Source: a virus. Taken from it: DNA of 20,327 nt. Positions 6,152 through 20,222 of the stretch are shown here, one piece after another; position 1 is the first letter of the stretch, and the number at the start of each line of letters is the position of its first letter. Position numbers and translations under genes: made by a program. The stretch is from positions 1-20,327 of IMG/VR virus record IMGVR_UViG_3300008120_000857, one strand, 5' to 3'. A model generated the notes under the pieces. It had not been told where the DNA came from. It saw only the letters and a program-made list of their open reading frames with translations, and ran no database searches.

Positions 6152-8950
6152 GTGGGCGGTAATGATAAAGTAGAAAACCAAGGAGATTTAATACTAAGAT
6201 ACAGTATTAGATTAGGTGCTCCTGCAAATAGAGACAAAGAAATTTATTTTAATTTACAAGGCGTAGTTGATAGCCCGGACGTAAATCGTCCGGTAACTAG
6301 AAAAATCGCAATCGAAGCCTTAGATAAATGGATAACCAGTGACGGTACAGCTACAGTATCAGAAGTTGAAGCCCCAGAAAGCGAGTTAGTGACGATAAAA
6401 GGTAGTTTTCAAACACCAGTAACAGTACAAAATACTACTAAAATAATCAACTGGTACTTTGAAACTAATAACCCCGGGTTTATATTATCTTCTGCTGAAG
6501 CTCAAACACCTCAGCCTGTTATCACCCAGGTTACACAAGAGGCTAACACAGGTGATAATAACGGACAGCTAAATCAACCTGACACTCAACAGATCGATTC
6601 TGCAGAGAGTTTTCAATCTGCACTGCACGCTATGTTAGCGATTGTACAAGTAGAAAGCCAGATTGAAGCAAAGAATGAATCGTTAAATAAACCTGTAATT
6701 CGAGTAGATATTACAAAAATAACTAACGACTTTTATAAAGGAGGTATTTTTGAAAAAGTACTTCTCACTACACAGAGTAATCAGATACAGAGTAATCAAT
6801 TTGATATAACTCAGTACGCACTAAGAGGCTTCAATAGCGATTTTATCGCATACCCTGATGATAAGATCAATAACGGAACATCAGCTCAATCAACAATAGC
6901 CGCAAATGTTCCTGTTGTAAATTTTGCAGATCTCTGTAAAGCTTATGTTGTAAGATATCCGAAAGTTCGTCCCGACGGGTCACTTGATACCGTCCATATT
7001 CCGGTGTATATAACGTTTGGATATTTGCTCGCGTTCCTCAACAATATGTGCCTTATTTACGATTCAAAGCAAAAGACTGATTCCTTGCAGGAGTCGGTAG
7101 GCACTGAAAAACGTCCTTATGTTTACTTAGATTTTAATCCTGAAACTAATTTCTGTTTGAGCTCACCTCAGCAGCTAACTGTGGATCCTTACACTTGTTT
7201 AATTCCCTTTAATTCTACAAGTACCGAGTATAGAGAACTTTTTGCAGAAGGAATAAAGACTGATAATTTTTTTAATCCAGAGAATCAAAACCGGGTTAGT
7301 GCTGCATTAAATAATTTTGGTTTATCTTATAAGTCAATCACCAACGTTTATCAAGGAAAGATAATGAATGTTCTCTTGAATATTGATTATTTATTAGGGC
7401 TAATTAAACAGTATGCAGGTGCAGATAAAGAACATGCTGTTAATTTACAGCCGTTTTTAGAAAGAATAACTGTAGATATAAACAAGTCTCTTGGTAATAT
7501 AAACTCATTAAGGGTCGCTTATAGAGACGATGCAAATACGATACAGATAATCGATGATCAGTGGGTACCTAATTTAGACGAAGAGAAATCACTAATAGAT
7601 AGACCTAAATATCTAGATAGTCTAAACCAATCAAAAGATCCGATTTTATCCGGACAGCTGCCAGTGTTCGAAGCCCCGAGTCTCGGATTAGATCAACCAA
7701 ACGGAACTTTTAGTATAGCTAGAGAATTTCAATTTAAAACTACACTGTCTACTAAACTAGCAAGTACTATTGCTATTTCTGCTCAAGCTGCTACCGGTTC
7801 TGTAAACGCTACAGACCATTCTTCTTACAGTTGGCTTAATAAAAATTATCAAGACAGGTATAAACCTTACGTACAGGATCCTCCAAACAAGAACAAAGGT
7901 ACAAATAGTAACACAGCCGGAAACGTAGGTAATGTTAACGAGACATCTAACGATCAAAAAGCAGCAGATACTTTTAACACCCATGTGGCGAGTATATATT
8001 CAAATCTTCAATTAACTGAAGAGAGGATCGATATGGCCAAGAATTACTACATAGAGAGAATGTCAAAAGTAAAGTCTACGAGTAGTACAACTACAGCAGC
8101 CCCTTTCATCCCAGCCGATCTAGAAATAACTATCGACGGTATCAGCGGTATAATAATGACTAATGCGTTTACCATCCCCGAAAGTAGATTACCATTGTCG
8201 TTAAGAGCGGAAGACGGGTATACAAAGGTGGGTTTTATTATAACCGGGTTATCACATACTGTCGAAAATAATCAGTGGCTGACTAGGATTAAGGGGCAAA
8301 TGATAAAACTAAGAGAGGATTCACTATTAAGAAATCGAATATTTACTTTCAATAGAAATCAGAGCGAATTTGCACCCCCAGCCGGTACAGCTGCATCTAC
8401 TACTATCACAAATACACCTTGGAGTGCTGCATTTATTAGTTACGTCATGCGCCAGGCCGGAGTGTCATTTCCTTCGAATGCAAGTCATGCTGGATATGCG
8501 CAATCGTTGAGAACTAATAGCAGGGGATTCGAGATCTTAGATCCTGCTAGAACACAAGTTAAGGTAGGGGATATAGTAGTAAAGAATAGAAGAAATACTC
8601 AAGGAGTTTCAAATACCTTAACTTTCAACACTAATCCCTGGGACGGAGCAACTCACGGTGATATTGTAGTAAGTGTAAATAATAATATTATAGCAGCTAT
8701 AGGAGGCAACGTAAGTAGTACGGTATTCAAATCTAACATTCCCTTAACGAACGGACTATTAGCCACAGGTACAAGTGCTGCTCCAAACTTTTTCGTTATT
8801 TTGAGACCTCCTGCTAGCTTCGTACAGGCAATAGTAGATGTAGCTAATAGAGAGTACGAATTATGGACATCGCAAAGATGGGTTGAGTCGACAGTTGCTG
8901 CGATTCCAACTTTGCGGCTTTACTACAATACTGTTAATATATTCATATAA
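6152..8950 (+). CDS. Baseplate hub protein, C-terminal part with DUF2272-like hydrolase domain
   Basis: The GTG at 6152 lies within sequence that reads sensibly upstream in the same frame (VPLDSILISTEASR), so this is a continuation of the preceding frame, not a separate gene. It is a long virion-type region rich in N, T and Q. About residues 650-730 (ADLEITIDGISGIIMTNAFT, LSHTVENNQWLTRIKGQM) resemble the gp27/gpD-type hub domain. From about residue 750, PWSAAFISYVMRQAGVSFP, SHAGY, KVGDIVV, THGDIVV and IGGNVSSTV match DUF2272, a family predicted to be NlpC/P60-like peptidoglycan hydrolases. A wall-degrading domain on the hub parallels T4 gp5. This domain has no cysteine, unlike the usual thiol-peptidase fold (see findings). 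It ends two bases before the next gene. Confidence 0.65.
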   Translation: MGGNDKVENQGDLILRYSIRLGAPANRDKEIYFNLQGVVDSPDVNRPVTRKIAIEALDKWITSDGTATVSEVEAPESELVTIKGSFQTPVTVQNTTKIINWYFETNNPGFILSSAEAQTPQPVITQVTQEANTGDNNGQLNQPDTQQIDSAESFQSALHAMLAIVQVESQIEAKNESLNKPVIRVDITKITNDFYKGGIFEKVLLTTQSNQIQSNQFDITQYALRGFNSDFIAYPDDKINNGTSAQSTIAANVPVVNFADLCKAYVVRYPKVRPDGSLDTVHIPVYITFGYLLAFLNNMCLIYDSKQKTDSLQESVGTEKRPYVYLDFNPETNFCLSSPQQLTVDPYTCLIPFNSTSTEYRELFAEGIKTDNFFNPENQNRVSAALNNFGLSYKSITNVYQGKIMNVLLNIDYLLGLIKQYAGADKEHAVNLQPFLERITVDINKSLGNINSLRVAYRDDANTIQIIDDQWVPNLDEEKSLIDRPKYLDSLNQSKDPILSGQLPVFEAPSLGLDQPNGTFSIAREFQFKTTLSTKLASTIAISAQAATGSVNATDHSSYSWLNKNYQDRYKPYVQDPPNKNKGTNSNTAGNVGNVNETSNDQKAADTFNTHVASIYSNLQLTEERIDMAKNYYIERMSKVKSTSSTTTAAPFIPADLEITIDGISGIIMTNAFTIPESRLPLSLRAEDGYTKVGFIITGLSHTVENNQWLTRIKGQMIKLREDSLLRNRIFTFNRNQSEFAPPAGTAASTTITNTPWSAAFISYVMRQAGVSFPSNASHAGYAQSLRTNSRGFEILDPARTQVKVGDIVVKNRRNTQGVSNTLTFNTNPWDGATHGDIVVSVNNNIIAAIGGNVSSTVFKSNIPLTNGLLATGTSAAPNFFVILRPPASFVQAIVDVANREYELWTSQRWVESTVAAIPTLRLYYNTVNIFI

Positions 8951-9676: not shown

Positions 9677-10972
9677 ATGTATTACATAGTTGAGACTAAA
9701 GAACAGCTTGCAAAGTTACCTAAAACGGATAAATGCTTTGTTGATTTAGTTGCACTTTCCGAAGAATCACATCCTCTTCTTACTGTCCCTTCCGCACTCT
9801 ATTACAACGACTTCGAAAAAGGGTATATTATACCAATTAATCACTCAGAAGGATTTTCTCTAAGTCTAGACGATATACAGAATTTTCTGTTTGAGATCGA
9901 CAAAGTTTACCTGCTAGATAAAAAATGGCATTCCTACTTTCTCTATTTGCCGCAAGCCGTAGACCTATACTTCAATATTCTAGATAAAGATGGAGAAATC
10001 AAAGATATTCAATGCTACACACCTGTTCATCTAGACTTCTATAATAAGTTCAAGTACTCAGAAGAAGTAAATACTCTAATACCAATATCTAAGCATTACG
10101 AAAAGTGTGAATGTATGTTTAACGCGGTAAAAGACTATGCCGGAAGGGAAAGTAATGTAGAATGGCAAAATGAGTATATAAAAGCGTATAAATGGGTAGA
10201 AGAACAGGGTCTGACTGTAAATGAAAGGGTTTTCGATAAGTTTTTTGAGCCTACATGGAAGGCTAGATCTGTGAAAGATAACCGAATCTACACAAGCTAT
10301 AACCTTTACAACATAACCTCTAGGCCTACCAATGCATTTAATGGAATTAACTTTTTAGCCTTCAATAAAGAGAACGGATCTAAGACGGCTTTTGTACCTC
10401 AAAACGATGTTCTTGTAGAGTTTGATTTTGATGGGTACCATTTGAGATTGATTGCAAATATGTTAAACGTATCCCTACCTTCTGATGAATCTATTCACGT
10501 TATTTTAGGTAGACAGTATTTTGGAAAGGAAGAATTAAGTTCGGAAGAATATCAAGAATCTAAAAAAATAACTTTCCGGCAGCTCTACAACGGGATTGAA
10601 GAAAAATATAAGCATATAGAATTATTTGATAAGGTTAACTGGCTACTCGAGGCAGGATGGGCTGAATATAAAAGGAAAGGCTTTCTTGAATTACCAAACA
10701 AGCGAAAAATAAAGATAGAAAACGCCAATCCGCAGAAGCTTTTTAATTACTATGTTCAATGTCTAGAGACCGTAAACAATGTAAAAAAGTTAATTGATTT
10801 ACGCGAGTTATTTAAAGGGAAAAAGAGTAAAGTCATCCTGGTAGTATACGATTCAATTCTTATTGATTATTCAACTGAAGACGGAAAAGGATTTTTAAAG
10901 CAGATCAAAGATGTTTTGGAAAAGGACAGATATAGGGTGAAAGCACAAAAAGGCGATAACTACAACTTTTAG
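9677..10972 (+). CDS. Compact, divergent family A DNA polymerase
   Basis: The 431-residue protein carries the family A polymerase motifs in order. Residues 214-229 (TSRPTNAFNGINF) match the TGRLSSxxPNLQNIP region, with R216 as the conserved arginine. Motif A is VEFDFDGYHLR with catalytic D250. Motif B (O helix) is KKITFRQLYNG with K296, F300 and Y304 at the expected four-residue spacing. Motif C is VYDSILIDYS with D392. The N-terminal ~130 residues (FVDLVALSEES...GYIIPINHS) look like a decayed DnaQ-type 3'-5' exonuclease without the DxE pair, so proofreading is probably absent. The E of the usual DYSQIEL motif is H255, and the H-D-E of motif C is Y-D-S. It is much shorter than T7 (704 residues) or E. 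coli Pol I. The likely role is phage genome replication, as the first gene of the replication block. Confidence 0.75.
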   Translation: MYYIVETKEQLAKLPKTDKCFVDLVALSEESHPLLTVPSALYYNDFEKGYIIPINHSEGFSLSLDDIQNFLFEIDKVYLLDKKWHSYFLYLPQAVDLYFNILDKDGEIKDIQCYTPVHLDFYNKFKYSEEVNTLIPISKHYEKCECMFNAVKDYAGRESNVEWQNEYIKAYKWVEEQGLTVNERVFDKFFEPTWKARSVKDNRIYTSYNLYNITSRPTNAFNGINFLAFNKENGSKTAFVPQNDVLVEFDFDGYHLRLIANMLNVSLPSDESIHVILGRQYFGKEELSSEEYQESKKITFRQLYNGIEEKYKHIELFDKVNWLLEAGWAEYKRKGFLELPNKRKIKIENANPQKLFNYYVQCLETVNNVKKLIDLRELFKGKKSKVILVVYDSILIDYSTEDGKGFLKQIKDVLEKDRYRVKAQKGDNYNF

Positions 10973-10993: not shown

Positions 10994-11413
10994 ATGGCAT
11001 ACATTGAACTAACGCAAGACCAATTGAAGAATAAGTTATTTTGCACATTTTCTCCTAAAGACCGGCTGGATGACACCCTTAACTTGATACAGGGGGAATA
11101 CTCTATCATGTACGGTAAGATTTTTGTGTTAGAGTCAATCGATTCAGAAGAGCTTCTCTGTACTTATAATATTGAGATTGAAGGTAGTACTACAAGAGTA
11201 TTACCGAATACCATCCTACTACATAGAAAAAAAGAGACAAACACTCTTTACACTATTAATAGCCTTAATCTGCTTATTAAAACACTTAATGAAGGAGTTC
11301 TCGATACTTCCTTCCGGATTAATTGGCACGATTACAAGAACACAGTCCTCCTCTCGCAAGGAGATGAGCTTAAGAAGCTTTCCACAAAAATTCACAAAAT
11401 AGTCAACATATAA
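10994..11413 (+). CDS. Conserved-looking phage protein of unknown function
   Basis: The 139-residue protein sits between the polymerase and the gp32-like gene. It starts with ATG directly after TATTTATT, with no Shine-Dalgarno sequence. It is acidic to neutral, with alternating beta-strand-like segments (KIFVLESIDSEELLCTYNI, TRVLPNTILLHRKK) followed by a helical region (TLYTINSLNLLIKTLNEG) and INWHDYKNTVLL. It has two cysteines (C42-like in 'FCTF' and 'LLCTY') but no metal-binding pattern. I recognise no catalytic motif and no named family. Its place among replication genes suggests an accessory role in DNA metabolism; this is inference. Confidence 0.6.
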   Translation: MAYIELTQDQLKNKLFCTFSPKDRLDDTLNLIQGEYSIMYGKIFVLESIDSEELLCTYNIEIEGSTTRVLPNTILLHRKKETNTLYTINSLNLLIKTLNEGVLDTSFRINWHDYKNTVLLSQGDELKKLSTKIHKIVNI

Positions 11414-11482: not shown

Positions 11483-12289
11483 ATGGGTATGGATTTAGGC
11501 GCAATCAAGTCTAAACTAAGTGCCTTGCAAAGCCAAAAGCAAGGCGGTCAAAAGAGAGATATGTCTCTCATTCTCTGGAAACCTACAGTAGGTAAGCATT
11601 CTGTGCGTATTGTACCTGCGTTGTGGGACAAGGCAAATCCTTTTAAGGAGATTTTAGTTCACTACGGTATCGGTAACCGTACTATGATTTCTCTCGTTAA
11701 TTTCGGGGAGAAAGATCCAATCGTTGAGTTCGCCAAGCAGCTTGCATCAAGCGGGGACAAGGAAAATTGGATGATGTCTCGTAAGCTCGAACCAAAAATG
11801 CGCGTTTTCACACCTGTGATTGTTCGCGGGGAAGAAGAGAAGGGTGTTCGCCTTTGGGAATTCGGTAAGCAGATTTACGCTGAACTTTTAAGTCTTGCTG
11901 ATGATCCGGATATCGGAGATTATACCGATGTTATTCAGGGTCGCGATATCACTATCGAAACTACTGGACCTGAAACTAACGGTACTTCCTTTAATCAATC
12001 CAAGGTACGTGTTCGTACCAAAACTACTCCTTTGTCCGAAGATGCAGCCGAGGTACAAAAGTGGTTAAATAATCAACCAGATGTATTTTCTATCTTTAAG
12101 AAGTACCCTTACGACGAAATGAAAGAAGCACTTCTTGGCTGGTTGAATCCAGAAGAGACTACTGACGAGCCTGCTCCTGCTACACCTAAACAAGAAGCTG
12201 CACCAGTTGAAAAGCCTGCTTCTCTTTCCCTAAATACTCCGAAGGCTAAACCAAGCATTGACGAGGAATTTGATGACCTATTTAAGTAA
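11483..12289 (+). CDS. Single-stranded DNA-binding protein, T4 gp32-like
   Basis: The 268-residue protein has gp32 architecture. A basic N-terminal arm (IKSKLSALQSQKQGGQKR) is followed by an OB-fold-like core with LWKPTVGKHSVRIVP, then VRLWEFGKQIYAELLSLADD and GRDITIET. After a P/A/E-rich linker it ends in an acidic tail, SIDEEFDDLFK. In gp32 the arm drives cooperative binding and the acidic tail contacts replication and recombination partners. It stands directly before the recombinase, as expected for a partner of UvsX and the helicase. Unlike T4 gp32 it has no cysteine at all, so the zinc ribbon (His-Cys3 in T4) is missing. ATG at 11483 is chosen because it directly precedes the basic arm; a second ATG two codons on is also possible. 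Confidence 0.85.
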   Translation: MGMDLGAIKSKLSALQSQKQGGQKRDMSLILWKPTVGKHSVRIVPALWDKANPFKEILVHYGIGNRTMISLVNFGEKDPIVEFAKQLASSGDKENWMMSRKLEPKMRVFTPVIVRGEEEKGVRLWEFGKQIYAELLSLADDPDIGDYTDVIQGRDITIETTGPETNGTSFNQSKVRVRTKTTPLSEDAAEVQKWLNNQPDVFSIFKKYPYDEMKEALLGWLNPEETTDEPAPATPKQEAAPVEKPASLSLNTPKAKPSIDEEFDDLFK

Positions 12290-12296
12290 TTAATTT

Positions 12297-13373
12297 ATGG
12301 CTAAACTAGCTAAAGCCTCGTTAAACGAAAGTGTAGCGGGAGCTGTCAAGGGTACTTTTAACTTAGAGAAGTTTATTCAATCAAAAAACCTCTCAAGTAC
12401 TTCGATAAAAATGAAAGAGCAGACTTGGATTCCTTTATCTAAGGCCTTTCAAGATTGCCTATCTATTCCAGGCATTCCAGTAGGACATATCACGCTACTT
12501 CGCGGACATTCTGATACCGGTAAGACTACTGCTCTCCTCGAGGCTGCAGTTAGCGCACAGAAGATCGGTTTTTTACCTGTATTCATTATTACTGAGATGA
12601 AGTGGAATTGGGAACACGCCAAGCAAATGGGACTCGTGTTCGAAGAAGTACCTAACGAAGAAGGCGAGGTTGCTGACTACAAAGGATTTTTTATCTATGT
12701 AGATAGAGAAAGACTTAATACTATTGAGGATGTAGCAGCATTTATCGCCGATCTTCTCGACGAACAGAAAAAAGGTAATCTTCCCTACAACCTATTATTC
12801 CTTTGGGATTCTGTAGGATCTATTCCTTGCCGTCTATCTGTTGAGTCAAACAAGAACAATAACGAGTGGAACGCAGGCGCAATGTCTCAACAGTTTGGTA
12901 ACTTTATCAACCAGAAGATTGTTTTGTCCCGTAAGCAAAGTCAACCTTATACTAATACTATGCTTGCTGTAAATAAAATCTGGGTAGCTAAAGCAGAGAA
13001 CATTATGGCCCAGCCTAAGATGAAGAACAAGGGCGGTGATACTATGTACTTCGATGCTTCCTTAATTATTACTTTCGGAAATGTAACTAATTCCGGAACT
13101 AATAAGATTAAAGCAACTAAGAATGGAAAGGATGTAGAGTTTGCAAAGCGTACTAAGGTTAGCTGCGATAAGAATCACGTTAACGATGTTACATCGACCG
13201 GACGGGTTATTATGACTGCACACGGGTTTATCGATGATACTAAGCAAGCAATCGATGCTTATAAGAAACAATACTCTAAAGACTGGTTAAAAACTCTCGG
13301 CTCAGTCGATTTTGATGTAGTAATTGAAACCGATGAAGACAACAAAGATGTATTTGATCCTACCGAGGAATAG
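12297..13373 (+). CDS. uvsX: UvsX/RecA-like recombinase
   Basis: The 358-residue protein is a RecA-family ATPase that forms filaments on ssDNA and carries out strand exchange in recombination-dependent replication. Walker A is GHSDTGKT at residues 70-77 with K76. Walker B is LLFLWDS with D171. An NTMLAVNKIWVAKAENIMAQ segment matches the region before the L2 loop, and GGDTMYFDASLIITFG matches the conserved strand of RecA/UvsX proteins. The length is slightly shorter than T4 UvsX (about 390). The C-terminus is acidic (ETDEDNKDVFDPTEE), as in RecA proteins where it moderates DNA binding. It starts seven bases after the SSB stop, so the two are probably co-expressed. The RecA family is certain; the phage UvsX subtype is inferred from context. 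Confidence 0.85.
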   Translation: MAKLAKASLNESVAGAVKGTFNLEKFIQSKNLSSTSIKMKEQTWIPLSKAFQDCLSIPGIPVGHITLLRGHSDTGKTTALLEAAVSAQKIGFLPVFIITEMKWNWEHAKQMGLVFEEVPNEEGEVADYKGFFIYVDRERLNTIEDVAAFIADLLDEQKKGNLPYNLLFLWDSVGSIPCRLSVESNKNNNEWNAGAMSQQFGNFINQKIVLSRKQSQPYTNTMLAVNKIWVAKAENIMAQPKMKNKGGDTMYFDASLIITFGNVTNSGTNKIKATKNGKDVEFAKRTKVSCDKNHVNDVTSTGRVIMTAHGFIDDTKQAIDAYKKQYSKDWLKTLGSVDFDVVIETDEDNKDVFDPTEE

Positions 13374-13388
13374 TATATCTTTAAGAGT

Positions 13389-13826
13389 ATGACGAGAATT
13401 AACATAGGTATTCCACCTAAGGAGTTAACTAATAAGCATTTAATTGCTGAACATAGAGAGTTAAAGCGCATACCAAACGTTGTAGCAAAGGGTAAATATA
13501 ATCTCAAGAGCGTTCCTCAAGAGTTTACCCTGGGTAAAGGTCATGTATCATTTTTTTACGACAAGCTAGGATATTTAAAAGAGAGATACATTGACCTCTA
13601 CAACGAATGTATATTTAGGGGATTTCAAGTACAGAGTTATTTAGCGTCATGGGACGGTGTACCGCAAGAGTTAATGAATAGTTATACTCCAACAGATAAG
13701 GATATTTGTATAATCCGTGAAAGGATAGCTGAAAGATTGGCTAATCCGATTGCAAAACAAAAAAAGAATGGATTACAGAAAGATGTTCGAGCAGATGGAG
13801 AAACAAGAGCCGGTAGACTTACATAA
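13389..13826 (+). CDS. denV: DenV-like pyrimidine dimer DNA glycosylase (endonuclease V)
   Basis: The 145-residue protein is close in size to T4 DenV (138) and matches it over most of its length: MTRIN at the N-terminus, HLIAEHRELKR, then FTLGKGHVSFFYDKLGYLKE and RYIDLYNECIFRGF. It repairs UV-induced cyclobutane pyrimidine dimers by base excision and strand cleavage. The residues known to matter are present: Thr2, whose amino group attacks the sugar once Met is removed, Glu24 (T4 Glu23), and Arg23 and Arg27 (T4 Arg22 and Arg26). The Met-Thr start is therefore decided by the mechanism. The C-terminal ~35 residues do not resemble T4 and overlap the following exonuclease gene. It belongs to the recombination and repair block. 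Confidence 0.92.
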   Translation: MTRINIGIPPKELTNKHLIAEHRELKRIPNVVAKGKYNLKSVPQEFTLGKGHVSFFYDKLGYLKERYIDLYNECIFRGFQVQSYLASWDGVPQELMNSYTPTDKDICIIRERIAERLANPIAKQKKNGLQKDVRADGETRAGRLT

Positions 13827-14784
13827 GAATAGTAGAGTTTTAATTGTCGATTCGCTAAATACCTTCTTACGCAGTTTTACAGCAATTAGTCACATAAATC
13901 CAAGCGGGGCGCACATTGGAGGTCTAGGCGGCTTTCTTAAATCTATAGGAGCAGCTATAAGACAGTTACAGCCTACTAGGGTTATTCTAGTCTTTGACGG
14001 CCAAGGAGGATCTACAAATAAAAGATACCTCTACCCCGAGTATAAAGCAAATCGGCATATAACTAAAATCTCAAACTGGGATGCATTCGACAACCAAGAA
14101 GAAGAATCTGAATCAATAACTGCACAAATTGTACGTCTAGTTGATTATCTCAAGTGTCTCCCTGTTGATTTAGTTATTATAGATAAAATAGAAGCCGACG
14201 ACGTTATAGGGTATCTTGCAGGGCAATTTACCGAGAAGGTATTTGTATTATCAACCGATCAAGACTATTTACAGCTTGTTAACGACAACGTTTTCGTTTT
14301 TTCTCCAATCAAGAAAATCATTTACGATCCCGCAACAGTTATCGAGGAGTACGGAATACCTGCCCATAATTTTCTAACCCATAAAGTTATAGTAGGTGAT
14401 AAGGGAGATAACGTACCTGGTGTTAGAGGTATTGCAGCTAAAACCTTAATCAAATTATTTCCTGCTATTACGTCGAGTGAGGAATTTACTTTAGAGAAAC
14501 TACTAAATGAATGCGTAGGGAAGGATAAAAAGTATGCCGATGTTTATAATTTTCGCAATCAGTTAGAGATCAATAGGAAATTAATGGATATTCAAAATCC
14601 AAACATTCCTGAAACGGATAAAGAGGTATTAAATCATATTATAGCCAATCACAATAACGAGTTTAATCCTGAGAGCTTCGTTAAGCTATACAACGAAGAC
14701 CAGTTAGGTAAGACAATGCCAAGTCCACATTTATGGTTGAGTGAAATATTTTCAAAATTAGCTAAGTTCGAGTTGAAAAAATAA
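13768..14784 (+). CDS. 5'-3' exonuclease / T4 RNase H-like flap nuclease
   Basis: This is a FEN-family nuclease that removes RNA primers and flaps from lagging-strand fragments. The conserved acidic residues appear in order: RVLIVDSLNTF, VILVFDGQGGSTNKR, KIEADDVIGYLA, VLSTDQDYLQL and then the helix-hairpin-helix segment VGDKGDNVPGVRGIAAKTLI. The IIYDPATVIEEYGI segment is also typical of the family. The frame extends back to a TTG at 13750, but the ATG at 13768 is the better start; ATG at 13783 also fits. The start lies inside the denV gene, an overlap of 59 bases. The product is about 338 residues (T4 RNase H has 305). It ends 22 bases before the helicase gene. Confidence 0.87.
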   Translation: MDYRKMFEQMEKQEPVDLHKNSRVLIVDSLNTFLRSFTAISHINPSGAHIGGLGGFLKSIGAAIRQLQPTRVILVFDGQGGSTNKRYLYPEYKANRHITKISNWDAFDNQEEESESITAQIVRLVDYLKCLPVDLVIIDKIEADDVIGYLAGQFTEKVFVLSTDQDYLQLVNDNVFVFSPIKKIIYDPATVIEEYGIPAHNFLTHKVIVGDKGDNVPGVRGIAAKTLIKLFPAITSSEEFTLEKLLNECVGKDKKYADVYNFRNQLEINRKLMDIQNPNIPETDKEVLNHIIANHNNEFNPESFVKLYNEDQLGKTMPSPHLWLSEIFSKLAKFELKK

Positions 14785-14806: not shown

Positions 14807-16180
14807 ATGGGAGTATTAAATCAGTTACAGCAGTATGGAGTAAGCTTTCAAATAAAAGTTTTATCAAGCCTACTTAAGCATAGAGAATTTTTACAAAGTA
14901 TTTATGATATACTAGAAGAAGATTACTTTGATAATCCAGCACATAAATGGATTGTTGAAGAGATACTGAAGTACCACTACAAATACCATACTACACCTAC
15001 CCTCGACGTACTCCAAGTAGAGGTGAAGAAAATTGAAAACGAGGTATTAAAAGTATCGGTAATTGAGCAGTTAAAAGAAGCCTATAAAGCATCTAACGAA
15101 GATAGAGACTTTGTTGAGCAGGAGTTTTCTAACTTCTGTAAAAATCAGCAATTAAAGAAAGCGTTACTATCTTCTGTCGAGCTACTTGAAAAAGGTCAGT
15201 ACGATGATATTCGTTACCTAATTGATACTGCACTAAAAGCAGGCCAAGATAAAAATATCGGTCACGAGTATGAAAAGGATGCCGAGACTCGTTATAGAAT
15301 GGAAGAAAGAGCTCCACAGCCTACACCTTGGGAACATATTAACGAACTACTGCAAGGAGGTTTAGGTTCAGGTGATTTAGGTATTATCTTCGGGAATCCA
15401 GGCGGCGGTAAGAGCTGGATGCTCGTTGCATTAGGTGCAATGATTGTATCAGGCGGCGGTACTGTAGCTCATTACACCCTTGAACTATCAGAAACGTATA
15501 TGGGTAAGAGATACGATTCTATTTTTACCGGTATTAGAATTCAAGATCTAGGTAAGCATAGAAAAGAGGTAGATGAAGCAGTGAGTAAATTACCTGGTAA
15601 GCTTATTATCAAAGAATTTTCAATGGGTAAAGCATCTATATCAACTATTGAGAGTCATATACAGAAGATTACCGATCTCGGACATAGACCAGATCTTATT
15701 ATTATCGACTATGTTGATCTTCTTAAATCTAAGAGAAAATCTATTGACAGAAAAGATGAGATAGATGATATTTATGTCTCCACCAAGGCCCTGGCCCGTG
15801 ATCTCAAGATACCAATTTGGACTGTATCACAGGTAAATAGAGCAGGTGCAAAGGACGATGTTATCGAAGGAGATAAAGCAGCCGGATCTTACAATAAGAT
15901 TATGATTGCTGACTTTGCGATGTCGTTGTCTAGAAAGAGGTTAGATAAAGTTAACGGTACTGGTAGAGCACATATTATGAAAAACCGTTATGGCGGTGAT
16001 GGTATGACTTACCCTGTGAAAATCAATACCGAAAACGGTAATATTGAAATAACAGCACGCGAAATGGGTGAGGATGAATTCGTTCAAGAAGGAGCTCCGA
16101 TACCCGGAAAGCCGGTAACTGGTTTCAGTGCAGAAGAGAAAAATTTTCTACAACAAAGGTTTTTTGAATTAGGGAAATAA
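14807..16180 (+). CDS. Replicative DNA helicase, gp41/DnaB-like
   Basis: The 457-residue protein is a hexameric RecA-fold helicase that unwinds the fork 5' to 3' on the lagging strand. Residues 1-150 are helical and match the DnaB N-terminal domain (FQIKVLSSLLKHREFL, LEEDYFDNPAHKWIVEEI). Walker A is GNPGGGKSW at residues 196-204 with K202. Next is YTLELSETYMGKR (motif 2), then LIIIDYVDLLKS with D301 (Walker B) and IPIWTVSQVNRAG. The C-terminal AGSYNKIMIADFAMSLSRKR and MKNRYGGDG correspond to the arginine-finger region. No primase gene is seen in this window. The start ATG follows a TTATATTATC leader without a Shine-Dalgarno sequence. Confidence 0.88.
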   Translation: MGVLNQLQQYGVSFQIKVLSSLLKHREFLQSIYDILEEDYFDNPAHKWIVEEILKYHYKYHTTPTLDVLQVEVKKIENEVLKVSVIEQLKEAYKASNEDRDFVEQEFSNFCKNQQLKKALLSSVELLEKGQYDDIRYLIDTALKAGQDKNIGHEYEKDAETRYRMEERAPQPTPWEHINELLQGGLGSGDLGIIFGNPGGGKSWMLVALGAMIVSGGGTVAHYTLELSETYMGKRYDSIFTGIRIQDLGKHRKEVDEAVSKLPGKLIIKEFSMGKASISTIESHIQKITDLGHRPDLIIIDYVDLLKSKRKSIDRKDEIDDIYVSTKALARDLKIPIWTVSQVNRAGAKDDVIEGDKAAGSYNKIMIADFAMSLSRKRLDKVNGTGRAHIMKNRYGGDGMTYPVKINTENGNIEITAREMGEDEFVQEGAPIPGKPVTGFSAEEKNFLQQRFFELGK

Positions 16181-16514: not shown

Positions 16515-18371
16515 ATGGACATCTCCCAGAGCATCCTAAGTGATATTACAGTGTATATGAAATACGCAAAATTCAACCCAGACTTAAATAGAAGAGAATC
16601 TTGGGATGAGTTAGTTGATAGAAATAAAGAAATGCACATAAAGAAATTCCCTCATTTAAAAGATGAGATTGAGGATGCTTATACGTTTGTCTATGATAAA
16701 AAAGCTTTACCTTCTATGCGTTCTATGCAGTTTGCCGGTAAGCCCATTGAGATTAGTCCTAACCGTATATATAATTGCGCTTACTTACCTATAGACGATT
16801 GGAGAGCTTTCGGTGAGACTATGTTCTTGTTACTTGGAGGAACTGGGGTAGGTTATTCAGTGCAGAAACACCACGTTGATCAATTACCTGAAATCAGAAA
16901 ACCTGATCCAAAGAAAAATCGTCGTTTTCTCATCGGGGATAGTATTGAAGGATGGGCCGATGCGGTAAAGGTACTCGTACGCTCTTATTTTGAAGGAGGA
17001 TCCACTCCAGTATTTGATTTTTCAGATATTCGTCCTAAAGGTGCTCAACTAATTACTTCAGGCGGTAAAGCACCCGGCCCCCAGCCCCTTAAGGAGTGTT
17101 TACTAAAGATTCAAGGAGTATTAGATAGTAAGGAAAACAACGATAAATTAAAACCAATTGAGGTTCACGACATTGTATGTCATATTGCAGATGCAGTATT
17201 AACCGGAGGTATTCGTAGGGCTGCTTTAATTAGCCTATTTAGCGCCGATGACGAAGATATGATTGCTGCTAAGTCGGGTCCATGGTGGGAACGTAATCCT
17301 CAAAGAGGTAGAGCTAATAACTCTGCCGTTCTACTTCGCAGCAAGGCAACAGAGGAGTTCTTTATGAATCTCTGGGAGAAAATTAAAGCATCAGGTGCAG
17401 GCGAACCAGGTATCTATTTCAATAATGATAAAGACTGGGGAACTAATCCATGCTGTGAAATCGCATTACGTCCTTATCAGTTCTGTAACCTGTGCGAGGT
17501 AAACGTATCAGACGTTGACGATCAAGAAGACTTAAATCAAAGAGTTAAGGCAGCTACATTTATCGGTACCTTGCAAGCATCGTATACCAACTTCCACTAC
17601 CTACGCCCTGTATGGCAACGTACTACCGAAAAGGATGCCTTAATCGGCGTGGGTATGACAGGTATCGGATCAGGTGCAGCTCAAAAACTAGATCTCAAGC
17701 AAGCAGCCCAAATTGTGAAGGAGGAGAATGAAAGAGTAGCTAAGCTAATCGGTATTAATCCTGCAGCAAGATGTACTACTATTAAACCATCTGGTACTTC
17801 ATCTCTGACTTTAGGTACATCAAGCGGTATTCATGCATGGCATAACGATTATTACATCCGCAGAATCCGGGTAGGTAAGAACGAAGCAATCTATACTCAT
17901 TTATCGATTCATCATCCTGAACTTGTTGAAGACGAATACTTCCGTCCACACGATACTGCTGTTATTTCAGTACCGCAGAAAGCACCAGAAGGATCTATTT
18001 TACGTCACGAATCTGCTTTACAGCTTCTAGAAAGAGTGAAGTTCTTTTATCAGAATTGGATCAAACCTGGACATAGAACAGGTCAAAACACTCACAATAT
18101 ATCAGCTACAGTTTCTATTAAAGATGCAGAATGGGAAGAAGTAGGTAAGTGGATGTGGGAAAATCGTAAGTTCTACAACGGACTTTCTGTACTTCCTTTT
18201 TCAGAACACACCTATAAACAAGCTCCTTTTGAGGATTGTACTGAAGAGCAATATGAAGAACTCATGAAAAGTCTTACTAATGTAGACCTCTCACAAGTAG
18301 TTGAATTTGTTGATAGTACGAATTTAATGGGAGAAGTAGCTTGTGCTGGTGGAGCTTGCGAAGTAGTTTAG
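16515..18371 (+). CDS. nrdJ: Class II (adenosylcobalamin-dependent) ribonucleoside-triphosphate reductase, monomeric
   Basis: The 618-residue enzyme reduces ribonucleotides to deoxyribonucleotides with a B12-derived radical, in the cytosol and without oxygen dependence. The full cysteine set of the Lactobacillus leichmannii enzyme can be placed. C88 in NRIYNCAYLP corresponds to C119. C313 in NPCCE corresponds to the thiyl C408, with N311 and E315 as N406 and E410. C324 corresponds to C419, exactly eleven residues later. The C-terminal pair C610 and C615 (CAGGAC) corresponds to C731 and C736. Also visible are FLLLGGTGVGYSVQ, LTGGIRRAALIS and KPSGTSSLTLGTSSGIH. It is shorter than the Lactobacillus enzyme (739), as is usual for phage forms. 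The ATG follows an AT-rich leader with a stem-loop. Confidence 0.93.
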   Translation: MDISQSILSDITVYMKYAKFNPDLNRRESWDELVDRNKEMHIKKFPHLKDEIEDAYTFVYDKKALPSMRSMQFAGKPIEISPNRIYNCAYLPIDDWRAFGETMFLLLGGTGVGYSVQKHHVDQLPEIRKPDPKKNRRFLIGDSIEGWADAVKVLVRSYFEGGSTPVFDFSDIRPKGAQLITSGGKAPGPQPLKECLLKIQGVLDSKENNDKLKPIEVHDIVCHIADAVLTGGIRRAALISLFSADDEDMIAAKSGPWWERNPQRGRANNSAVLLRSKATEEFFMNLWEKIKASGAGEPGIYFNNDKDWGTNPCCEIALRPYQFCNLCEVNVSDVDDQEDLNQRVKAATFIGTLQASYTNFHYLRPVWQRTTEKDALIGVGMTGIGSGAAQKLDLKQAAQIVKEENERVAKLIGINPAARCTTIKPSGTSSLTLGTSSGIHAWHNDYYIRRIRVGKNEAIYTHLSIHHPELVEDEYFRPHDTAVISVPQKAPEGSILRHESALQLLERVKFFYQNWIKPGHRTGQNTHNISATVSIKDAEWEEVGKWMWENRKFYNGLSVLPFSEHTYKQAPFEDCTEEQYEELMKSLTNVDLSQVVEFVDSTNLMGEVACAGGACEVV

Positions 18372-18697: not shown

Positions 18698-19504
18698 ATG
18701 GCAAACGTAAAAATATCCCAACTCCCTGCAGTCACTTCCGTAACCGGAACTGATGTATTTCCTGTAGTAGCAACCACTACAACCTCTAAATTAACTATTA
18801 CAGGACTTGCAAATTCACTATCGCAAGTTACTTCCTCTATCAGTTCATCAGTAGCAGTATCTGCTTCTTATGCATTAAGCAGTTCATTCGCATTATCTGC
18901 ATCTTGGGCGCCAGGTGCAGCTGCAGTAGTACTTGCAGTTTCAAGCAGTGGTTCTTCAATATATTCTGTAAATCCCGGTACATCTAATTTCGGATTAACA
19001 GAAAGTATTTTCTTAGGTACTAATGCCGGCGGCGGATCGCCTACTGCCAATTACTCTGTCTTTATAGGAAACGAAGCCGGTTCCGGATCGACAGATGGAG
19101 CTGCTTCAAATTTTATCGGATCTAGTGCAGGTAAACAAGCAACTAATATTAATAGCACTGTAGCAATCGGAATTGCAGCAGGACAGCAATCTAACTTAGC
19201 TAATGAATCTGTATACATTGGATCCTATGCAGGATATCAGACAACAGGAAATAGCTATAGTACGCTTATAGGTAAGTATGCCGGACAAAACTCAAGCGCA
19301 GATTATTCAAACTTTTTAGGATATCAAGCCGGCGAATCTACTGCTGCTAACTATTCTAACTTTTTAGGTATAAACGCCGGACAAGTAGCAACTAACGCTA
19401 TTAACTCTAACTTCTTAGGCGAGAACGCTGGTCAAAGTGCAACTAATGCTAACAATTCTAACTTCCTGGGTCGGTGCAGGTCAAAACGCCAACGGGGCAT
19501 TTAA
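18698..19504 (+). CDS. Tail fibre protein, N-terminal part
   Basis: This starts MANVKISQLPAVTSVTGTDV, an opening I associate with tail fibres and receptor-binding proteins of Bacteroidota phages. Next comes a short repeat (SASYALSSSFALSASWAPG, about residues 54-72), then a long array of 17-residue units of the form SNFLGxxAGxxATNAxN starting at 19004. These suggest a trimeric beta-helix or beta-roll shaft. The frame ends at 19504 after FLGRCRSKRQRGI, where the last ten residues break the repeat; the repeat continues in another frame. The intact protein would have about 508 residues, running to 20222. It is likely the host-recognition fibre of the virion. Confidence 0.75.
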   Translation: MANVKISQLPAVTSVTGTDVFPVVATTTTSKLTITGLANSLSQVTSSISSSVAVSASYALSSSFALSASWAPGAAAVVLAVSSSGSSIYSVNPGTSNFGLTESIFLGTNAGGGSPTANYSVFIGNEAGSGSTDGAASNFIGSSAGKQATNINSTVAIGIAAGQQSNLANESVYIGSYAGYQTTGNSYSTLIGKYAGQNSSADYSNFLGYQAGESTAANYSNFLGINAGQVATNAINSNFLGENAGQSATNANNSNFLGRCRSKRQRGI

Positions 19505-19907
19505 TTCTAACTTCTTAGGAGAAGGAGCAGGAAAGTTAGCAACTAGTGCAGGCAATTCTAACTTTTTAGGAGAGTTTGCTGGCGAAACTGCAACAAATGC
19601 TAAAAATTCAAACTTCATAGGTACCTATGCCGGCTACCAAGCAACTAATGCTAGTAGCTCTAACTTCATAGGTGAACTAGCCGGATGGCAGGCTAATCTA
19701 TCTCACCAATCTAATTTTATCGGTACGACAGCTGGATATGGAGCAAACAATGCTAGCGGTTCTAACTTTATCGGAAACCAAACAGGACAGAATGCCGATA
19801 ATGCATTTTATGCTAACTTCATTGGATTTAAAGCCGGATACTATGCTACAAATGCTAAGCATTCGAACTTTATAGGTACTGAAGCAGGATCTCCATCTTC
19901 AGCATAT
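19004..19907 (+). repeat. 51-base tandem repeats encoding 17-residue beta-structure units
   Basis: Eighteen units begin at 19004, 19055, 19106, 19157, 19208, 19259, 19307, 19355, 19406, 19457, 19506, 19557, 19608, 19659, 19710, 19761, 19812 and 19863. Steps are 51 bases except 48 (19259 and 19307 units) and 49 (19457 unit). Each unit encodes [ST]xF[IL]Gxx[AT]G followed by a variable polar stretch, often ATNAxN. The last unit is short. The pattern resembles YadA-type head repeats, suggesting a trimeric shaft. Confidence 0.85.
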
Positions 19908-20222
19908 TCAACATTTATCGGTTTCCAAGGATCTTATTCTGATGTAAATAGCGCAGTATTCGCAGGAGCAATGACTACTGCAAGAGTAGGTATTAATAAA
20001 GTAAGTCCTGTTTATACTCTAGACGTAAGCGGTAGTGGTAACTATGCAAACGGATTAACAGTAACCGGCTCGTTCATGGTAACTGGAAGCTTTGTAGTAC
20101 CTGCCGAAGCGACCGCTAATCCTGCAACAGGTAGTATGTATGTAAATGCCGCCGCAAACCAGTTGTGGGTATTTACAGGAAATAGTGCAACCGGATGGGT
20201 AACCGCAAGCCTAGGTATCTAA
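19437..20222 (+). CDS. Tail fibre protein, C-terminal part (frame-shifted)
   Basis: The meaningful part of this frame begins near 19472 (GAGQNANGAFNSNFLGEGAG) and continues the 17-residue repeats in exact phase to about 19907. The upstream GTG at 19437 is only an in-frame start by chance. After the repeats come MTTARVGINKVSPVYTLDVS, a VGI...SP...LDVSG-type module, then GLTVTGSFMVTGSFVV, and the end GSMYVNAAANQLWVFTGNSA plus TGWVTASLGI. No peptidase S74 chaperone domain is present. The fibre tip therefore looks simple, with a short C-terminal trimerisation cap. The gene ends in a TAA directly followed by a run of nine A; the next gene begins 16 bases on. Confidence 0.75.
   Translation: MQLMLTILTSWVGAGQNANGAFNSNFLGEGAGKLATSAGNSNFLGEFAGETATNAKNSNFIGTYAGYQATNASSSNFIGELAGWQANLSHQSNFIGTTAGYGANNASGSNFIGNQTGQNADNAFYANFIGFKAGYYATNAKHSNFIGTEAGSPSSAYSTFIGFQGSYSDVNSAVFAGAMTTARVGINKVSPVYTLDVSGSGNYANGLTVTGSFMVTGSFVVPAEATANPATGSMYVNAAANQLWVFTGNSATGWVTASLGI

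Follow-up and report, generated by a model that had tools for sequence, protein, structure and literature searches.

The divPolA1 proteins, divergent family A DNA polymerases, were named in 14 phages, Flavobacterium phage immuto among them (PMC11348598, Virol J 2024). They were described as having an inactivated exonuclease, a truncated thumb and a conserved palm, with replication genes conserved downstream, in phages that additionally encode a regular polymerase of family A, B or C. The conserved neighbourhood was read as involvement of divPolA1 in replication itself, and the role of the regular polymerase was called 'less obvious' (PMC11348598). A literature search on the name divPolA1 returned just this paper and its preprint, and we found no biochemistry of any member.

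The window analysed here is the whole stretch of 20,327 nucleotides, a 20 kb fragment of an incomplete phage genome from an uncultivated phage clade. It includes an ORF that runs from ATG to stop and codes for 431 aa, which heads a block of genes:

9677-10972, plus strand: divPolA1, a 431-aa family A DNA polymerase with a dead DnaQ-like N-terminal domain, a truncated thumb and altered motifs A, B and C
10994-11413, plus strand: orf139, a 139-aa protein, the invariant downstream neighbour and a candidate divPolA1 partner
11483-12289, plus strand: gp32-like single-stranded DNA-binding protein, SSB (PF08804, E = 1.7e-10; phrog_1192, E = 1.1e-21)
12297-13373, plus strand: RecA/UvsX-like recombinase (phrog_97, E = 5.3e-16; PF00154 just under the cut-off)
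13389-13826, plus strand: DenV-like pyrimidine-dimer DNA glycosylase (PF03013, E = 7e-13; phrog_1183, E = 3.5e-38)
13768-14784, plus strand: 5'-3' exonuclease/flap nuclease of the Pol I N-terminal nuclease family, as a separate gene (PF02739, E = 1.6e-31; phrog_107, E = 1.9e-34)
14807-16180, plus strand: DnaB-like replicative helicase (PF03796, E = 8.6e-21; phrog_19, E = 5.7e-77)

In a tblastn search of 50,697 phage records, the window protein aligned with immuto gp001 at 36% identity over 99% (residues 1-428, E = 2e-77); the other matches were to LR756508, an uncultured 484 kb phage (35%), and Microcystis phage Mel-JY01 (29%). It also retains both catalytic Asp and has unconserved exonuclease acids, a truncated thumb and replication genes downstream. 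Based on the full-length homology to immuto gp001 and these shared features, we assign it to divPolA1, as a newly recognized member of a family that is already described and uncharacterized. The first-pass annotation had suggested a distinct lineage of phage family A polymerases; the lineage is distinct, but it is neither unstudied, being the divPolA1 of PMC11348598, nor standing alone, as its relatives encode a second polymerase. Four other IMG/VR contigs (L007-L010) encode a 100% identical protein. Searches of IMG/VR yielded 548 relatives with the window protein, at least 548 with an immuto-based alignment, a set that may overlap the first, and 109 with the Mel-JY01 protein; judged from these matches, the family has at least several hundred members there. 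No relatives of the LR756508 copy were found in a scan of viral contigs.

Taken as a single sequence, the window protein matches phrog_17 (DNA polymerase) at E = 3.5e-7 and Pfam DNA_pol_A at E = 7.5e-6, the latter under the cut-off, and it retrieved nothing useful from the PDB. A profile of 49 homologues placed E. coli Pol I at the top of the PDB (E = 7.5e-6), and Foldseek, given an AlphaFold (AF2) model of the window protein (pLDDT 93.7, pTM 0.91), ranked Pol I/Klenow first (E = 3.6e-17; TM by query 0.75 for 1kfd). The family A assignment is firm because of the family profile and the structure, the single-sequence evidence being weak. Structure prediction had been proposed as a check against Pol I, and it returned a Klenow-like palm/fingers fold; the earlier recognition of motifs A, B and C within a 431-residue family A protein is borne out by the PDB profile, the AF2/Foldseek comparison and an alignment with E. 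coli PolA, and the model places these motifs in the predicted palm and fingers. Because hhalign gave no significant similarity between divPolA1 and the regular PolA encoded alongside it (probability 0.3%), residues were mapped from the E. coli alignment and the profile match. The parts of the protein are as follows:

9677-10051, plus strand: DnaQ-like (3'-5' exonuclease) remnant, residues 1-125, from AF2 secondary structure and column counts; catalytic acids absent
10052-10321, plus strand: short region replacing the thumb, residues ~126-215, from the position of R216 in the E. coli alignment; two helices only in the AF2 model
10424-10447, plus strand: motif A, D250-F-D-G-Y-H255-L-R257, from the E. 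coli PolA alignment; D250 and H255 invariant
10550-10588, plus strand: motif B/O-helix, Y292xxxK296xxxF300xxxY304 (R754 to Y), from the E. coli alignment, PDB profile and column counts
10847-10855, plus strand: motif C, Y391-D392-S393 (HDE to YDS), from the same three sources

The alignment to E. coli K-12 PolA equates R216 with R668, D250 with D705, H255 with E710 and H274 with H734; along the O-helix, Y292 with R754, K296 with K758, F300 with F762 and Y304 with Y766; and in the C-terminal part, N357 with N845, Q361 with Q849, Y391 with H881, D392 with D882 and S393 with E883. The substitutions read earlier from the sequence (SQIE to DGYH in motif A, HDE to YDS in motif C, and Tyr292 at the O-helix Arg position with K296 as the conserved Lys) are all correct by this comparison. 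R216, D250, H255 (one gap), Y292, K296, F300, Y304, Y391 and D392 do not vary across 217 distinct homologues, and only Ala or Ser occurs at position 393, giving a motif C of Tyr-Asp-Ala/Ser. Members that are 85–90% identical show a dN/dS of 0.04–0.05, with dS near saturation; the polymerase is under strong purifying selection, and the label 'decayed' suits its exonuclease domain but not the polymerase. Together, the invariance and the low dN/dS put the residue pattern far beyond chance. Polymerase activity is likely, given the invariant catalytic residues, the selection and the Klenow-like model. The changes at E710, R754, H881 and E883 affect the nucleotide-binding site, with a different substrate or much reduced activity as possible outcomes; from their fixation we infer that nucleotide selection may be unusual. 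We found nothing directly usable in the literature on the substituted residues, and the main text of PMC11348598 holds no discussion that we found of the altered E710/R754/H881/E883 positions.

The exonuclease domain retains its fold in the AF2 model, but, as the first-pass annotation stated, the DnaQ-like N-terminus lacks DxE: in family column counts position 23 is D, E, I or V, position 25 is hydrophobic and position 85 is mostly L, H, M or F. With these acids unconserved, proofreading is almost certainly absent. However, simple decay of the domain does not fit with its invariant K83. R216 is preceded by 215 residues, compared with 344 between the start of the Klenow part and R668 in E. coli PolA, a difference of ~130, and about 45 fewer residues follow it. 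Relative to E. coli, residues are missing from the exonuclease/thumb part, from the O1 region just past motif B, and ahead of N357. The MAFFT alignment is unreliable where it pairs the N-terminal domain with Klenow, so no counterpart of D355 is assigned.

divPolA1 heads the gene block in every locus examined. All 53 loci whose downstream sequence exceeds 7 kb have the order divPolA1, orf139, SSB, RecA, 5' nuclease, DnaB, one of them without a RecA match. The DenV-like glycosylase, between RecA and the 5' nuclease, occurs in a subset of loci only. orf139 lies directly downstream in 152/152 loci with enough sequence and in 66/66 Mel-JY01-like loci; searched in reverse, from orf139, divPolA1 is upstream in 54/54, and orf139 was never seen without it. 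In the annotated phage collection the two occur in the same 6 records. Near-duplicates are common among these loci and inflate the counts as a measure of independent cases, but groups sharing about 30% identity show the same pattern. Against the immuto-like group, orf139 is better conserved than the polymerase, with a mean identity of 56% versus 37%. orf139 has no Pfam or PHROG match, and its model (best pLDDT 84, other models 59–68) gave no significant PDB-fold match. As far as we found, neither the residue signature H/Y/YD[AS] nor the strict pairing with orf139, both shown here, is discussed in the main text of PMC11348598.

Elsewhere in the window, a ribonucleotide reductase with B12-dependent class II features (PF21995) is encoded at 16515-18371; at the corresponding place immuto has NrdA/NrdF annotated. 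A 932-aa protein with a C-terminal DUF2272 domain lies in a tail/baseplate gene region (6152-8950). A repeat protein with many SNFLG-type repeats (18698-20222) is split by a frameshift near 19440-19500, which may be an assembly error or real. A putative tape-measure-like gene (364-2257) has a frameshift near 1830, where L008 and the larger relative L064 have about 375 extra bases, with about 105 more near 1125-1129; L008 is otherwise 98–100% identical to the window over the tape-measure stretches. These extra bases suggest that the window is collapsed in assembly at 364-2257.

Large phages of aquatic bacteria carry divPolA1 in addition to a polymerase of normal, full size. All 15 tested divPolA1-carrying contigs of at least 80 kb, some of which are possibly close relatives of each other, encode a full PolA or PolB: PolA in all nine window-like and immuto-like IMG/VR contigs, and PolB in all six that are Mel-JY01-like or other. 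So do three genome-scale phage records: Mel-JY01 encodes PolB, LR756508 a family C polymerase plus PolB fragments, and immuto a regular PolA, gp199, of 777 aa with exonuclease DTE and motif C HDQ. L064, the nearest large relative of the window (83% identical protein), has a ~769-aa PolA about 25 kb downstream; no second polymerase was seen in the 20 kb window, and the position of an L064-type PolA is beyond its reach. The initial view of a lone polymerase is not supported, since the second, full polymerase named beforehand as a refuting finding is present in every sufficiently complete relative. On balance, divPolA1 is probably an accessory polymerase, and the genome is copied by a separate full-size one, in the window's clade a ~770-aa PolA beyond the window. 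Rhodothermus phage RM378 was considered as a split family A system and set aside; its annotated polymerase is of family B and it has no divPolA1 match.

The best explanation, to which we assign a probability of roughly 55%, is that divPolA1 is an accessory, distributive gap-filling/repair polymerase that works with the neighbouring 5' nuclease. It keeps the two metal-binding Asp and the O-helix Lys while thumb and proofreading are lost, and low processivity is expected from thumb loss in view of Klenow biochemistry, so it may act as a short-patch, low-processivity gap filler, extending 3' ends at Okazaki-fragment gaps, recombination intermediates and excision-repair gaps. The fixed gene order from divPolA1 to DnaB and the DenV-type glycosylase in the window's block supply a gap-filling context. 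The separately encoded Pol I-type 5' nuclease would cooperate, in a division of labour like that of a Pol I cut in two, a partnership suggested by operon linkage, which is no proof of it; RecA and SSB would work with divPolA1 in gap filling, and orf139 is a possible tether or partner replacing the thumb. Against this explanation stand the substitutions in the nucleotide-binding site and the view of PMC11348598 that divPolA1 takes part in replication itself. In a more elaborate and doubtful version, the accessory polymerase consists of two obligate subunits, divPolA1 and orf139; orf139 would serve as thumb or as SSB/RecA tether, and the fixed His/Tyr/Tyr substitutions would confer a nucleotide or sugar preference unlike that of other family A polymerases.

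Somewhat less probable still is a Pol alpha-like primer extender that lays down the first stretch of DNA at the fork with DnaB and SSB before the regular polymerase takes over. Missing proofreading and a short reach would be in keeping with an initiator, DnaB and SSB are always co-encoded, and the regular polymerase is of family A, B or C depending on the phage, both in the relatives examined here and in PMC11348598; however, the immuto primase gene (gp091, at 104 kb) is far from the block, and no primase domain was found in or near the window's divPolA1. A translesion or repair-only polymerase tolerant of damaged bases is unlikely: the absent proofreading, the altered dNTP site, and the pyrimidine-dimer glycosylase and RecA of the block would fit, but the glycosylase is found in some loci only while divPolA1 is constant in place, and O-helix F300/Y304 are canonical.

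Rather improbable is a ribonucleotide user, either an RNA polymerase or a primer maker. In Klenow, E710 is the sugar gate, and the loss of this steric gate from divPolA1, in which E710 is always His and R754 always Tyr, would admit rNTPs. An RNA polymerase role was also raised for the other variant, divPolA2 (PMC11348598). His nevertheless remains a bulky gate residue, the best fold matches are DNA polymerases, and the block is one of DNA replication. The view that a distinct phage lineage replicates with divPolA1 alone, and that nucleotide selection is unusual in this enzyme, is close to refuted: no other polymerase is visible in the 20 kb window and divPolA1 heads the replication block, but all large relatives, L064 included, have a full second polymerase, and the thumb is largely missing. 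Least credible is a catalytically dead structural subunit of the replisome, for although E710, R754 and E883 are changed, both metal-binding Asp and the O-helix K/F/Y are invariant in 217 sequences, which is unexpected for a dead enzyme.

The question raised by PMC11348598 is why a thumb-truncated, proofreading-less polymerase is kept next to a complete one, and the active-site signature, fixed in highly diverse members, and constant orf139 partner make it directly testable. Both stay constant even as the family of the main replicase changes, which suggests that the block has a core function whichever replicase is used.

Compared with E. coli Pol I (Klenow), divPolA1 keeps the fold, the motif order and R668, D705, K758, F762, Y766, N845, Q849 and D882, but it is without most of the thumb and the O1 region, its exonuclease is dead, and it has E710H, R754Y, H881Y and E883S; the 5' nuclease fused to Pol I is in the window a separate gene nearby. 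immuto gp001 and its relatives are like the window copy in size, lost exonuclease acids, truncated thumb, conserved palm, downstream replication genes and a second 'regular' polymerase (for the window copy, in its relatives), although the window copy is about 36% identical to gp001 and comes from an uncultivated phage clade. immuto gp199 and its homologues, family A proteins of the same genomes, differ from divPolA1 by their DxE (DTE), full-length thumb region and HDQ. Finally, divPolA2 of barbaviruses is likewise a second, divergent, exonuclease-less PolA beside a regular polymerase, but its N-terminal domain is described as unrelated and its gene neighbourhoods as variable (PMC11348598).
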